Assembly (NCBI RefSeq): GCF_037969765.1
Contig: NZ_CP150207.1
Location: 186,001-250,000, forward strand
Reading direction: 5' to 3'
DNA length: 64,000 nt
From: Paenibacillus sp. FSL W8-0186
Lineage (GTDB): Bacteria > Bacillota > Bacilli > Paenibacillales > Paenibacillaceae
Shown: positions 7,725 through 49,154 of the stretch, in pieces
Layout of the letters: each line of letters opens with the position of its first letter
Position numbering within the stretch: position 1 is the first letter of the stretch
The notes under the pieces: model-generated
What the model was told of the DNA's origin: nothing
What the model saw: only the letters and a program-made list of their open reading frames with translations
Database searches by the model: none
Program-made: the position numbers and the translations under genes

Positions 7725-8786
7725 ATGCGAAATATTTTAGAAATGCAGAAGCAGCTTCTTCCAGATCTCATGGAAATTCTCAAGAAAAGGCATACCATAC
7801 TTCACCAGATCATGTTATCGGATGTGATTGGTCGCAGAACCTTGGCGCTTTCGCTAAACATGACGGAACGTGTACTGCGTGCCGAAACAGATCTCCTGAA
7901 GGCTCAAGGCCTGATTGAAATCGAGAATATAGGCATGAGGATTAGCGATTCGGGCAGGAAACTGCTAGAAGATATGGAGCCGATCGTAAAAGAAATATTC
8001 GGCCTCGCTAATTTGGAGGAGAAGATTCGCAAAGCCTTTGGATTGCGCAAGGTTGTGGTCATTCCTGGAGACTGGGAGACCTCTCCGCTGACGAAGCGGG
8101 AGCTCGGTCTGGCAGGTGCCAAAGCGCTGCTGGGGGCCATGCGCGGCGGAGACGTCGTAGCGGTCACAGGCGGTACAACGATGGCCGAGGTAGCGGAGCA
8201 GCTGAATCCGCCGGCGAATGCAGCGTTCAAGCAGAACTGGTTCGTTCCGGCGCGAGGCGGGCTCGGCGAGAGCCTGGAAATCCAGGCGAATACGATTGCT
8301 TCCGGCATGGCTAAGCGGGTTGGAGCAGGTTACCGGCTGCTGCATGTGCCCGATTTGCTCGGCAAGGAGGCGTATCAGTCACTGGTGCACGACCCGAATA
8401 TTCAGGATATCGTAAGCACGATTCGCCAGGCGCGGATTGTTGTGCACGGCATCGGGGATGCTACGGAGATGGCCCGCCGCCGCAAGCTCGACCGAGCAAT
8501 GATCGAGGACTTGCAGAAGGATGGCGCGGTTGCAGAATCATTTGGATACTATTTCGATAAAGAAGGCGTAGTTGTTCACAAAATGCTGACCCTGGGACTC
8601 CGTCTGGAAGACATCAGGAAGACGGACACGGTGATTGGAATCGCGGGCGGCAAAAGCAAGGCTAAAGCTATACACGCGGTGCTGCAGTTCGGACATGAAG
8701 ACATTCTTGTCACGGACGAAGCCGCGGCAATGGACATCGTGAGCGAACTGGAGCAAAAAGAAAAACAGCAGAACAGCGTTATTTGA
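7725..8786 (+). CDS. cggR: Central glycolytic genes regulator
   Basis: This SorC/DeoR-type repressor controls the lower glycolytic operon. The 353-aa protein has an N-terminal winged helix (residues about 1-90; [19 protein letters not shown] is the recognition region). A C-terminal SorC-like effector domain follows, with [21 protein letters not shown] and [12 protein letters not shown], which in the family binds fructose-1,6-bisphosphate. The start is the ATG at 7725 with AGGAGTGG upstream. The resulting [19 protein letters not shown] aligns with the Bacillus CggR N-terminus, unlike the 38-codon in-frame extension. It is the first gene of the operon and its promoter carries two matching operators, implying autoregulation. 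Confidence 0.95.
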
Positions 8787-46157: not shown

Positions 46158-46204
46158 AAAGGCCGTACTCAAAAGCGATCCGCTTTGGGACGGCCTTTTT
46201 TGTC
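46158..46204 (+). terminator. Aldo/keto reductase terminator
   Basis: AAAGGCCGT/ACGGCCTTT arms with an inner AAAGCG-ATC-CGCTTT hairpin are followed by TTTTTT. Confidence 0.85.
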
Positions 46205-46275: not shown

Positions 46276-46503
46276 ATGGCAAAGAAACAGATTCGGGTCC
46301 AAATTTTTCCCGATGGACAAATTAAAGCAGAGGTTATCGGAATCAAGGGGAAATCCTGCACGGATTATATAGAAATTCTCGAACAACTGCTCGACGCGGA
46401 AACGATAGATTCTGAATATACGGATGAATATTATGAAACGGAGCAAGTAGGAGTTCAGCAGCAGGATGTAAATCAGATCAAGACCAGAGAAGGAGGAGTA
46501 TAA
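46276..46503 (+). CDS. DUF2997 protein
   Basis: This 75-aa protein starts MAKKQIRVQIFPDGQIKAEV. The GIKGKSCTDYIEILEQLL core and following acidic/aromatic stretch (DEYYETEQ) match DUF2997, a small domain of unknown function. The ATG at 46276 follows AAGGAG; seven codons open upstream are not used. It is the first gene of a five-gene unit and ends one base before the next start codon region (46504), implying coupling. The neighbours are a DUF1257-like protein, a GYF/HhH protein and a radical SAM protein. Confidence 0.8.
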   Translation: MAKKQIRVQIFPDGQIKAEVIGIKGKSCTDYIEILEQLLDAETIDSEYTDEYYETEQVGVQQQDVNQIKTREGGV

Positions 46504-47259
46504 ATGTCGGTTTCTATCGCATTGGTTCCTATCGCGCTTACGCTGCGCCTGGTGATGGGTAAGGACAAATTTGACAGATGGGCAGAATCGATGCAAGTGA
46601 AGGAGCCCTCCACCTTTGAAAATGAGCATGAACTCGTGCGCACGGTGCGCAAGGCCGGGTACGATGCGGAAAAATGGGGAGGAAGCTATAAAACCCATAT
46701 CGACGGGGAAGATCTGTATTTCTTCTGGGAGCTCGATGACGGCAAATGGACAGCTGTCTTTGGAAGATCCGATTCTAGGCAGAAAATCAGGGAATTCATG
46801 GCAGAGATCAATCAGGCGGCCGGGCGGCAGATTTTCGAGCAGCTTCAGGTACAGGGCGACACGATGACCATGACTTCAGCCACAGAGACTGCCGAGTCCG
46901 TAGCGACCTTTCCTACCAATTTTCGGGACGGGGAGCTTTTGTTCAGAACACTGAAGGAATTCGGCGTTAACCCGGTCCGTGAGGGCTCCGGCATGAAATG
47001 CAGAGTAGAGGATGCCCTGCTGATATTCAGGCAGTCCCCATCCCATGACAGCCCATTTTACGTCGAGGTTCACAATGCGCCGGATTTGCGCAAAGTATAT
47101 CAATACCTATCCGATGTAGATGAGGATTATAAACGCTGCCTGCAGTCCATGGTCTATGAGAAGCTAAAGGAACGTGTGGAAGCAAAGAACATGACTGTCG
47201 AAAGTGAAGAAGTGCTGGAGGATAACTCCATAGTACTTACGATCAACATCAGGGGTTGA
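46504..47259 (+). CDS. DUF1257-like two-domain protein
   Basis: This 251-aa soluble protein appears to be a duplication. An N-terminal half (about 38-115) holds ENEHELVRTVRKAGYDAEKW and ELDDGKWTAVFGRSD. A C-terminal half (about 140-250) holds DGELLFRTLKEFGVNP, YQYLSDVDEDYKRCLQSMVY and then an alpha-beta tail, VYEKLKERVEAKNMTVESEE, ending VLTINI. The C-terminal half fits DUF1257 (Ycf35-like). The family's function is unknown. The TAA of the DUF2997 gene is adjacent, and GGAGGAG lies at the end of that gene as ribosome-binding site. Confidence 0.65.
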   Translation: MSVSIALVPIALTLRLVMGKDKFDRWAESMQVKEPSTFENEHELVRTVRKAGYDAEKWGGSYKTHIDGEDLYFFWELDDGKWTAVFGRSDSRQKIREFMAEINQAAGRQIFEQLQVQGDTMTMTSATETAESVATFPTNFRDGELLFRTLKEFGVNPVREGSGMKCRVEDALLIFRQSPSHDSPFYVEVHNAPDLRKVYQYLSDVDEDYKRCLQSMVYEKLKERVEAKNMTVESEEVLEDNSIVLTINIRG

Positions 47260-47264
47260 ACAGG

Positions 47265-48308
47265 ATGAGAACCATAGATTTTAATAAAATTGAGCGCATT
47301 TGCGCGGGTTACTGGGGGTCTGGCTATTTCGTCGCAGAGGCGATTCCGATCAACAAATTGTCTAAGTTTTGCAGTGCGATATCGGTCCAGGTTCAGGGGC
47401 ATGCCATTGCTTTTATCGACGCTACCGTATTTGGCAGCGGTAAAAATGGGCTGCTGATTACCGAGGCCGGAGTATATTGGCGCAATGACTGGGCGACGGA
47501 TACCAGGAAGAATTATCTGAGCTGGGAGGAGCTCATACAGGTCTCGGTCATGCGGAGCGGAGATTATGACATAGAGCTTGGTCCAGGCAACTTTTTCAGT
47601 ATGTCTGCCGGTCAATTTGATAAGGATGCCTTGGTTCAGCTGCTTCAGGATATTCAGAGCTATCTCATTACGGCATTGGGGGATCAAGCCGAATCTGAGG
47701 ACAAATACAACACGCAGGAAAAGGTGAACGCCCCACCCATCGCCCCACCTATGCCTGCACCAACAGAGAAATGGATGGTAGCCATAGCCGGTCAATCCTA
47801 TGGTCCATACGATATTGATCTGATTAAAAGTTTACTGGGCAGCGGACAAATTCGGCCGGAAGAGACCCATGTATGGAAGCCGGGCATGCCAGATTGGATC
47901 CCGTTCATGAGTCAGCCTGAGATGGCTGAACTGGTCTTCCCCGTTCCTTCGCCAGCTCCGCTGGAGCCGCGGTTTGCACCGACACCACAGTCTGTGAAGG
48001 ATTCGATCGAATTCTCCTTAGAACCGAAGCAAGCTTCGTATGAAATGGGCCCTGTCGATGTAAATACTGCATCCATGGAGGAATTGATTGAAGTTCTGGG
48101 CGTCGGAATCGTCGGGGCCGAGCGAATTGTGCAGCAGCGTGAAGCGGTTGGCGGGTTCCGGTCTCTGGAAGAGGTAGGGGAGTTATTAGGGTTAAAGCCT
48201 CACCAAGTAGAGAGATTGCGTAAGCAGGTTATTTTTACACCAATAGATGCATCTGTATCCCCAACGCCAACACCGCTGAAGCCAAACGCACGGGTGGTGG
48301 ATTACTGA
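47265..48308 (+). CDS. GYF_2 and helix-hairpin-helix domain protein
   Basis: This 347-aa protein has three visible parts. Residues 1-150 form a beta-rich domain (AISVQVQGHAIAFIDATVFG, GLLITEAGVYWRNDW, LSWEELIQVSVM) reminiscent of bacterial PH-like domains. Residues 165-225 form a GYF_2/DUF4339 domain (WMVAIAGQSYGPYDIDLIK and VWKPGMPDWIPF). Residues about 265-330 form a ComEA-like helix-hairpin-helix pair (VDVNTASMEELIEVLGVGIV and FRSLEEVGELLGLKP). Pro-rich linkers join them. The last codon overlaps the next start (TGATG). GYF-type domains bind proline-rich peptides and HhH binds nucleic acid or protein; the combined role is unknown. Confidence 0.75.
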   Translation: MRTIDFNKIERICAGYWGSGYFVAEAIPINKLSKFCSAISVQVQGHAIAFIDATVFGSGKNGLLITEAGVYWRNDWATDTRKNYLSWEELIQVSVMRSGDYDIELGPGNFFSMSAGQFDKDALVQLLQDIQSYLITALGDQAESEDKYNTQEKVNAPPIAPPMPAPTEKWMVAIAGQSYGPYDIDLIKSLLGSGQIRPEETHVWKPGMPDWIPFMSQPEMAELVFPVPSPAPLEPRFAPTPQSVKDSIEFSLEPKQASYEMGPVDVNTASMEELIEVLGVGIVGAERIVQQREAVGGFRSLEEVGELLGLKPHQVERLRKQVIFTPIDASVSPTPTPLKPNARVVDY

Positions 48309-48904
48309 TGCTGCTGCGCGTACATCAATTTATACCTGTGACTAGAGTGGAAGGGCCCGGCATACGTGCCTGTATTCAGGTACAGGGGTGCCCCATTCAT
48401 TGCCCTGGCTGTGCGGTTCCGTTTACTTGGGCGGCAGACGGGGGGATTGCAATGGAGGTAGAGCAACTGGCGGAGCAGATTCTTCAGGGGCCTGAAGTTG
48501 AAGGGGTGACCTTTCTGGGCGGGGAGCCCTTTGCCCAAGCCCGGGCGTTGGCTCAGTTAGGCGGCATCCTAAAGAATGAGGGGCTGTCAGTAATGACCTT
48601 CACGGGTTACCTGATTGAGAACTTGCGGAGCTCGGGAAACCAGGATTACCTCGACTTATTGGCGGTGACCGATTTGCTGATCGACGGGCCTTTTCAGAAA
48701 GACAGGCTGGATACAAGCCGGCCCTGGGTAGGTTCCTCCAATCAGCGCTACCATTTCCTGACGGATCGGTACTTTCATCTCCAGGATCAGCTGGCAGAGA
48801 TTCCGAACAGGCTTGAGGTGCGTCTTGCGCCTGACGGCAGGGTGAAGGTTAACGGGCTAGCCGAAGTTAAGGATTTAGAGGATCTGTTTGGACGGCTGCT
48901 ATAA
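48308..48904 (+). CDS. NrdG-like radical SAM protein
   Basis: This 198-aa protein has the radical-SAM cluster motif C-x3-C-x2-C in QGCPIHCPGCAVPFTW, the GGE motif in VTFLGGEPFAQA, and the short fold of anaerobic ribonucleotide reductase activase (NrdG). The same short fold occurs in several stand-alone modifying enzymes. The last 40 residues add a small beta domain (PNRLEVRLAPDGRVKVNGLA). No anaerobic reductase gene (nrdD) is nearby, and the operon links it instead to DUF2997 and DUF1257-like proteins. It is therefore probably not NrdG proper but activates or modifies another partner. The start overlaps the upstream stop codon. Confidence 0.83.
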   Translation: MLLRVHQFIPVTRVEGPGIRACIQVQGCPIHCPGCAVPFTWAADGGIAMEVEQLAEQILQGPEVEGVTFLGGEPFAQARALAQLGGILKNEGLSVMTFTGYLIENLRSSGNQDYLDLLAVTDLLIDGPFQKDRLDTSRPWVGSSNQRYHFLTDRYFHLQDQLAEIPNRLEVRLAPDGRVKVNGLAEVKDLEDLFGRLL

Positions 48905-48942
48905 TAGTTTGTGTATTGAATAATGAGATAGGAAGATGCAAT

Positions 48943-49107
48943 ATGAGATGTGGCGAGAAATGTTTTCTGGTCACCTATGAAATCGGCGGTGAACAGCGAG
49001 TAGCTCCGGTCACGGCCAGAACACCGGTGGAAGCGAGAAAAAAGCTCCGCCGCACCATCGGAGCAGAACCGAGTATTATTGCGGTTAGGCGGGACTCAGC
49101 CCAATAG
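48943..49107 (+). CDS. 54-aa protein at the end of the radical SAM operon
   Basis: This short protein, MRCGEKCFLVTYEIGGEQRV and onwards, has two Cys at the N-terminus, a strand pair and a basic helix (PVEARKKLRRTIG). GGAAG lies before the ATG at 48943. It ends the unit; a terminator follows at 49118. It might be a target or small cofactor-carrying partner of the radical SAM enzyme, but no family is recognised and this is inference from position only. Confidence 0.6.
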   Translation: MRCGEKCFLVTYEIGGEQRVAPVTARTPVEARKKLRRTIGAEPSIIAVRRDSAQ

Positions 49108-49117
49108 ACTTGGCGGA

Positions 49118-49154
49118 AAGACACTGATCTATTAAGGTTAGTGTCTTATTTTTA
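49118..49154 (+). terminator. Terminator of the DUF2997 operon
   Basis: AAGACACTGATC pairs with GGTTAGTGTCTT around a short loop and is followed by ATTTTT. Confidence 0.8.

Follow-up and report, generated by a model that had tools for sequence, protein, structure and literature searches.

Gene content of the DUF2997 operon

The window considered here is a 64,000-nucleotide stretch of the genome of Paenibacillus sp. FSL W8-0186 (C1:186001-250000; the genome is a single contig of 5.66 Mb). We analysed five open reading frames (ORFs) within it, all on the + strand, which encode a DUF2997 protein, two proteins that we call P2 and P3, a radical S-adenosylmethionine protein (rSAM) and a 54-aa protein. 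An earlier note on this DNA had described five same-strand genes with abutting or overlapping ends, which holds for the first four; the 54-aa ORF follows after a gap of 38 bases. P3 ends in a short C-terminal tail that is also carried by an AAA+ ATPase and by a transmembrane (TM) protein with a helix-hairpin-helix (HhH) domain, both encoded at a separate, unlinked locus, some 480 kb from the operon if the contig is circular. The best explanation of the data presented below is that the first four genes and this unlinked pair encode one machine. Features are given with window positions, or with genome positions where marked C1.

46276..46503, +: DUF2997 protein, 75 aa (PF11211, E=2.9e-18)
46504..47259, +: P2, tandem DUF1257-like protein, 251 aa (profile comparison with a DUF1257 set)
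47256..48308, +: P3 adaptor, 350 aa, with a PH-like part, GYF_2, HHH_3, a disordered linker and the C-terminal tail
48291..48305, +: codons of the P3 C-terminal tail, R346-V-V-D349-Y350, with the stop directly after
48308..48904, +: NrdG/PFL-AE-type rSAM, 198 aa, with a C-terminal extension (Fer4_12, 4.4e-31)
48350..48352, +: codon of rSAM Glu15, which aligns with PFL-AE Asp16
48389..48412, +: rSAM CPIHCPGC, the CX3CX2C cluster motif (three Cys in 103/103)
48719..48721, +: codon of rSAM Arg138, which co-occurs with Glu15
48943..49107, +: 54-aa ORF
49118..49147, +: downstream terminator-like hairpin (terminator scan)
C1:5410272-5411966 including the stop (5410275-5411966 as matched), -: AAA+ ATPase, unlinked locus
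C1:5411991-5412983, -: TM-HhH protein, 330 aa, adjoining the AAA+ gene

P3 starts with a TTG at 47256 or, alternatively, with an ATG at 47265. The earlier note had placed terminators on both sides of the operon. The downstream one was recovered by the scan, and a hairpin followed by a T run can be read near 46158, which is missing from the scan list, its loop being longer than the scan permits.

A Pfam search bore out the identity of the first gene, the only copy found in the genome, whose product scores 65.9 bits against a PF11211 gathering score of 24.1. Cys28 of this protein (codon 46357-46359, in a Gly-x-x-Cys motif) is kept in 67 of 68 aligned proteins, namely those shorter than 90 aa among 76 DUF2997 matches, and is a second candidate site of modification or ligand binding besides the tail. 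P2 had no Pfam match, including none to DUF1257/Ycf35 (PF06868) over the gathering score. The proposed DUF1257 kinship is supported at the level of profiles: single-domain relatives of P2 align with DUF1257-type proteins with an hhalign probability of 96.3 (E 1.8e-9) and the tandem members with one of 92.9, the comparison set holding two members confirmed with PF06868 and others picked by start and size. Judged by these profiles, P2 is a putative remote tandem DUF1257-like protein. Its predicted model consists of two similar alpha/beta repeats, for which comparison with PDB folds returned a best E of 2.4e-3 and weak TBP-like and KA1-like matches only. The fetched loci contain 1967 called genes, of which 80 encode P2-like proteins, one being a decayed remnant.

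The three-domain architecture suggested for P3 stands for the GYF_2 (residues 173-222, 3e-12) and HHH_3 (residues 266-325, 1.8e-14) domains, and its PH-like N-terminus is weakly supported, by the BnzA match described below and by Foldseek hits to PH domains with E of 0.1 or worse. The AlphaFold model comprises three folded parts followed by residues 333-350 with pLDDT <50; the GYF part resembles 7z3c (E 2.4e-3) and the HhH part resembles ComEA (E 3.6e-3). Behind a hypervariable linker, R346 and D349 are invariant in 12 aligned P3 proteins, the window's included.

The rSAM matches Fer4_12 / Radical_SAM in Pfam, and an alignment of 103 sequences, one of them the window's, shows no variation in its cluster cysteines, GGEP, G16, R20, Asp122 and Gly183. 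Its profile retrieved only PFL-AE entries among solved structures (PDB, E 0.001). Glu15 lies in a V-[DE]-G-P-G-x-R segment in which the corresponding PFL-AE residue, Asp16, anchors the substrate glycine (PMC9326890). Alignment A2, which goes with the structure-profile search, the PFL-AE alignment and the genome-wide rSAM searches, has 19 rows including the genome's own NrdG. By its homology to PFL-AE and its CX3CX2C motif, the protein is a predicted member of the glycyl radical enzyme (GRE) activase superfamily. No GRE partner is named among the coding sequences annotated near plasmid copies, a survey of annotations made without a search by GRE models. Comparison of the C-terminal stretch common to the rSAM family with DUF2997 gave an hhalign probability of 86.5 over only 19 columns and led nowhere.

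A C-terminal tail common to the ATPase and its partners

The AAA+ ATPase and a set of otherwise unrelated partner proteins end in G-R-x-[VIL]-[DE]-[FYWVIL]-COOH, placed behind variable linkers. In the window's genome, P3 ends in NARVVDY, the ATPase in RGGRTIDF and the TM-HhH protein in SGRIIDY, and both of the unlinked loci are thereby marked.

Across 40 loci, R..D[FYW] ends occur on 38 of 712 called genes, each of which encodes the ATPase or a partner in these operons. A wider count covered 115 loci, those without an AAA+ gene being skipped, and used the pattern R.[VILM][DE][FYWVILM]; from one scan of genome contigs, the best 80 of 536 related AAA+ loci were retained. The tail is present on 97 of 633 same-strand genes at most 4.5 kb from the AAA+ gene versus 3 of 736 others (Fisher 1.4e-30), and one of those three is an operon gene just past the 4.5 kb limit. 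Gly precedes the Arg in all 81 tailed ATPases, as Gly-Gly in 77, and the residue before the Arg in the partners is Gly in 58/97 and Glu in 25/97.

Tail bearers comprise the AAA+ ATPases, HhH proteins with PH/GYF, TM or TPR parts, Mrr_cat nucleases and TM-only proteins. An HhH-like domain was detected in 91 of 102 partner entries (the 97 above plus five added by coordinates, with at least two duplicates). Since most partners share HhH, the tail occurs in about four separate contexts, namely AAA+, HhH proteins, the nuclease and TM-only proteins. An operon from an uncultured Clostridium bin (L117, 7576-16925) encodes six tail-bearing products, and there and in two further Clostridia-like loci (L116, L128) an Mrr_cat nuclease of 241-248 aa ends in GRRIDI, GRKLDI or GRRLDV. 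Nine annotated plasmid regions were also inspected, a tenth region carrying no annotation. Both the ATPase and a partner carry the tail in operons of Paenarthrobacter (RRIDF, partner RTLDL) and Rhodococcus (RTFEF, RRLEF), the ATPase of a Treponema plasmid ends in RKLEM, the Paenibacillus region has variants and the remaining five regions have none.

A DNA-level search of the genome that contains the window used the pattern R.[VILMF]D[FY]-stop, which covers D[FY] endings (Glu or other last residues falling outside it), and gave 36 matches versus 42 in a reversed control. Thirty-two of these matches were inspected as loci, two are the ends of the AAA+ and TM-HhH genes, and two do not code for a tail (one reads Trp where the stop would be, the other Ser where the Arg would be). 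The ORFs of at least 60 aa with an R.[VILMF]D[FY] end are those of P3, the ATPase, the TM-HhH protein and one unrelated 189-aa ORF. Three of these four belong to the system. A divergent AAA+ operon (L249 / L277, G443:C9:3821032-3822498) has products ending in GRRVIV and RRRVLFK, perhaps another variant of it.

Distribution of the operon, the tail and the enzyme type

The operon had been viewed in the earlier note as a distinct version without an AAA+ ATPase. This view did not survive the genome-wide search, as the AAA+ orthologue is present at the unlinked locus with the same tail as P3. It is 68% identical to an operon-linked relative and otherwise matched only general AAA models, the phage family phrog_8638 and VCP-like structures. 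Among 40 genus genomes, those with an orthologue (at least 65% identity) are the very nine that have an intact operon; G443, in which the operon has decayed, has only a 37%-identity relative. The ATPase gene lies within the operon in five of the nine, and the informative cases are therefore the four unlinked ones, which have the same synteny, plus G443. The decayed locus of the latter (L057, G443:C9:814000-831000, -, about 8173-8735) has an intact DUF2997 gene, a 95-aa ORF that fuses the P2 N-terminus to the rSAM C-terminus and an intact 54-aa ORF downstream, and no AAA+ orthologue was found in that genome.

DUF2997 is rare, being detected in 8/398 genomes across a phylum sample and 34/394 in the family (own genome in both counts). 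All 34 family loci (L046-L079) have an rSAM near it (31 at at least 150 bits, with a fragment at L057 and divergent forms at L073 and L075), and 30 have an AAA+ of about 550 aa, which lies mostly directly upstream of the DUF2997 or DUF1257 gene among the loci displayed. The loci lacking the ATPase are L050, L053 and L054 (the window's neighbourhood) plus the decayed L057. No rSAM is encoded near DUF2997 at any of the six phylum-sample loci fetched from beyond the family (L080-L085), and DUF2997 therefore also occurs in other settings; the linkage extends through the family and not to these six, some of which have DUF1257-like genes and phage- or plasmid-like neighbours. AAA+, DUF2997, DUF1257-like protein, HhH adaptor and rSAM are encoded in one operon in Bacilli, Clostridia, Actinobacteria, Gastranaerophilales and a Tannerellaceae bin (taxa by record title). 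The idea of one biochemical system in which a radical enzyme works on a protein scaffold agrees with the conservation of the first four genes and with their activase-like rSAM, and does not extend to the 54-aa ORF.

At the level of clades, the enzyme type tends to go with the tail. Among scored loci, the ATPase has an acidic tail at 82 of 85 with an rSAM carrying Glu15 and Arg138 and at 2 of 14 with Asn15 forms. Once annotated plasmids are added, these fractions become 84/91 and 3/16, the former because four PIN-type operons, described below, have both residues and no tail. The three exceptions with Glu15 and Arg138 are L127, near a contig end, L151, whose ORF runs past a tail-like stretch, and L158. 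Four loci with a tailed ATPase and no good local rSAM (L092, L106, L134, L149) have an rSAM with Glu15 and Arg138 elsewhere in the genome, and the genomes of L153 and L167 have weaker rSAM matches only (74 and 132 bits), their tails being absent or changed (GGRKVVF). A rule that every AAA+ beside an rSAM is tailed fails, 11 of 12 Asn15-type ATPases that lack an acidic tail belonging to the operons L065-L079. Many of these ATPases end in R[KR][IL] followed by S, T or A, and Asn15 operons, some on Paenibacillus polymyxa plasmids (one pPPM1a), have changed ends on the ATPase and its neighbours (RKISF, RRISH; RVIHF, RVIRL), which suggests from these sequences that tail and enzyme type may change together. 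Asn15-type operons (L065-L069, L072, L074, L076-L079, L314) contain AAA+, DUF1257, DUF2997 and rSAM genes, often with membrane proteins. Relatives of the AAA+ of this type turn up in 683 plasmid records, of which 581 are predicted to be conjugative, and in 57 phage records.

The cyanobacterial relatives of the ATPase (L227-L239, L258-L276) lack the full tail in 32/32 cases, with no rSAM of at least 60 bits within the fetched stretch. The set comprises 13 among the top 30 of the phylum search and 19 fetched (plus G443, with the same result). Their ends are not devoid of any motif, as many read YQR[ML]EF or IRQEW, a shorter C-terminal motif. The full tail is absent although DUF2997 was detected in a Synechococcus control and a DUF2997-ycf35 cluster is reported (PMC4284462); the tail therefore follows the rSAM type, not DUF2997/DUF1257. 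In 11 of 16 cyanobacterial genomes searched (G912 not counted), an rSAM of the family scoring at least 172 bits is encoded elsewhere, with Asn or Leu at position 15 where read, and no AAA+ gene was seen in the 1.5 kb flanks of these rSAM genes.

Possible roles of the tail

We assign a probability of about 0.4 to the reading that the tail is the substrate or docking tag of the rSAM. GREs carry a C-terminal fingerprint, RVXG[FWY] (PMC11528403). The tails (R-x-[VIL]-[DE]-[FYW...]) have the same length and similar ends, and from this comparison we infer that the rSAM might modify them at or near the acid; the chemistry, as distinct from the sharing, is read from sequence. Much like the RVSGY loop in PFL-AE, the tail would occupy the active site of the rSAM, where Glu15 would stand in for Asp16. 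The 5'-deoxyadenosyl radical would abstract a hydrogen from the Asp/Glu that stands where GREs have glycine, or from an adjoining residue, and a covalent change at the C-terminus, such as decarboxylation, epimerisation or a cross-link, would result. This change would license assembly of the AAA+ ATPase, the adaptor and the membrane protein, with DUF2997 and the DUF1257-like protein as presumed core subunits and the ATPase performing mechanical work. The cyanobacterial ferredoxin gene that adjoins DUF2997 and ycf35 (PMC4284462) hints at a possible electron donor.

A broader proposal, that an activase-class rSAM covalently marks a common C-terminal tag of several unrelated proteins, from the ATPase and the HhH/PH/GYF/TPR adaptors to a membrane protein and an Mrr-type nuclease, and thereby licenses assembly of an AAA+ machine, is tentative, and we lean towards doubting it. 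Such a tag-directed code of radical modification acting in trans would, if it exists, which we hold to be similarly doubtful, differ from GRE activation and from the maturation of ribosomally synthesized and post-translationally modified peptides.

The system resembles GRE activation by PFL-AE and NrdG in the rSAM family, the CX3CX2C motif, the V-[DE]-G-P-G-x-R segment with its substrate-anchoring acid and the small size of the enzyme, and its partners resemble GREs in having a five-residue R...aromatic motif near the C-terminus. It differs in that an AAA+ ATPase, HhH adaptors and an Mrr-type nuclease serve as partners, that Asp/Glu stands in the Gly place, that the motif is the very C-terminus and that the rSAM has an extra C-terminal stretch. 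Aminoacyl radical enzymes likewise combine an activase-type rSAM with a replaced glycine (by Ala, Ser or Thr), but are GRE homologues with the GRE fold, and no Asp/Glu form is reported in the accessible part of their description (PMC11528403). The related AAA+, DUF1257 and DUF2997 families recur in the cyanobacterial Ycf46, Ycf35 (DUF1257) and DUF2997-ycf35-fed7 cluster (PMC4284462), from which the present system differs by its tail and by its Glu15-type rSAM, neither of which was found with the ATPase in the 32 cyanobacterial stretches. We take the cyanobacterial and plastid relative of the ATPase to be the protein named Ycf46; the function of Ycf46-type AAA+ ATPases is, to our knowledge, open.

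FtsH-type ternary conflict systems also pair an AAA+ protein with an rSAM whose presumed target is a peptide, but are built on vWA-MoxR-FtsH; the main text of their description contains no occurrence of Ycf46, DUF1257 or 'C-terminal tail' (PMC7159879). As to Bunzi, residues 24-134 of P3 (within 47256-47690) resemble the N-terminus of the PADLOC BnzA model (1e-9), whereas neither the five window proteins nor eight system proteins matched any further Bunzi model, BnzB being sought among 13 proteins. The ATPase matches only distant IetA/TRIP13 ATPase models in PADLOC. Assignment to a PADLOC defence system was rejected. Proteasomal ATPases bear HbYX tails, a C-terminal hydrophobic-Tyr-X motif, which the present AAA+ tails, ending in [VIL]-[DE]-[FYVIL], do not match.

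Several observations weigh against a role of the tail as substrate or tag of the rSAM. Known activases act on Gly (or Ala/Ser/Thr), where the tail has an acid, and an (S)-Ala peptide fails to bind PFL-AE (PMC9326890). The L158 ATPase is tail-less despite Glu15 and Arg138 in its rSAM, its adaptor ending in GRIVDV, and L155, from a metagenome-assembled genome, is tailed with no rSAM found. L070, L071 and the Treponema plasmid combine Asn15 with an acidic tail, and L168 combines an Asn15 rSAM with a tail-less ATPase. In four of four proteobacterial plasmid operons of the PIN type, Glu15 and Arg138 are present with no tail on the products examined, and the two residues fail as predictors of the tail beyond this AAA+ type. 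These operons (L310-L313, from Moellerella, Leisingera, Polaromonas and Acinetobacter) encode an AAA-domain protein (helicase), a PIN protein, an unknown protein, a different AAA+ (612-622 aa) and the rSAM. Closer to the window, a draft of the same species (G470, L242 on G470:C10) has its AAA+ gene frame-shifted just before the tail, and G444 has lost the TM-HhH gene beside the ATPase. The separate contexts of the tail number about four, with HhH shared by most partners. In a tree of 157 rows, 152 agree, yet only two supported independent pairs are available (four with unsupported branches); the sign test gives p 0.5, and the two supported pairs agree in nearly all pairings, a number with which significance is unreachable. 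This count leaves out the genus set and L210 (the genome of L168), sets six rows as unknown and four by hand from a genome-wide rSAM search, later confirmed as Glu15 and Arg138. The link between tail and rSAM is a clade-level one with counter-examples. Given the few independent transitions, the sharing of the tail among non-homologous proteins of one operon is therefore the stronger evidence.

The tail might instead be a docking ligand only, recognized by a common receptor (the rSAM, P2, DUF2997 or the AAA+ ring) in a manner comparable to the HbYX tails and never modified, with the rSAM acting elsewhere, for example on the DUF2997 Cys; we regard this as a serious contender, if a somewhat doubtful one. 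It would suit the location of the tail, which closes the protein chain after a disordered stretch and is found both on the ATPase and on its partners, as well as its fourth position, which is non-acidic in most Asn15-type operons. The enzymes that have Glu15 and Arg138 without a tail, and the near-invariance of Cys28, point the same way. It does not account for the absence of the full tail from the cyanobacterial ATPases that lack a nearby rSAM, despite DUF2997 there, nor for a five-residue spacing that equals that of the motif used by this rSAM class. That the tail is functionless, having passed between neighbouring genes when their ends were duplicated or exchanged and being kept by descent, appears improbable to us: the homology of most partners through HhH and the paucity of independent transitions would be expected, but R and D persist where linkers have diverged beyond recognition, the adaptors of L055 (without GYF) and L050 (with a second HhH stretch) both retain a terminal tail, and nuclease and TM-only proteins bear it too.

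Two further readings concern the proteins beside the tail, and both strike us as very unlikely. The earlier note had offered the 54-aa Cys-bearing protein as the rSAM substrate. Its ORF closely follows the rSAM gene, as it does in L050, L053 and L054, and is enriched in genomes with the intact operon (4/9 versus 3/31 others, p 0.03). It has no Pfam domain match and occurs in 7/40 genus genomes, of which two (G442, G438) have no DUF2997 and one (G443) has the decayed operon, while five of the nine intact-operon genomes lack it; in the family it was found at 4/34 loci, L050, L053 and L054 among them, and at none of the remaining 30. This distribution across genus and family contradicts membership, and the 54-aa ORF is a neighbour of the system. 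The rSAM could also be a second NrdG for the genome's NrdD, as its best named NCBIfam match is NrdG at 99.9 bits. This score falls below the equivalog cut-off of 126.1, and the single nrdD (C1:827107-828969(-)) is adjoined by a 172-aa NrdG scoring 163.1 bits, which has Gln where the rSAM family has the invariant Asp122 and is without the C-terminal extension. We ruled out NrdG as the identity of the window's rSAM; the reductase that the earlier note had found lacking is absent locally and present elsewhere, with its own activase.

The gene set is a conserved, widespread and apparently undescribed system, and its common tail is a new sequence feature; the two were not found described together in the open-licence literature searched, which does not establish their absence from print. 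What was an anonymous DUF operon can now be put to the test, and a candidate site of modification can be named in it. Should the tail prove to be modified, the PFL-AE/NrdG class would have a new role outside GREs, and a sequence tag would be at hand for locating partners of Ycf46-type AAA+ ATPases. Even if it is merely a docking peptide, the tail points to partners at unlinked loci, as in this genome.

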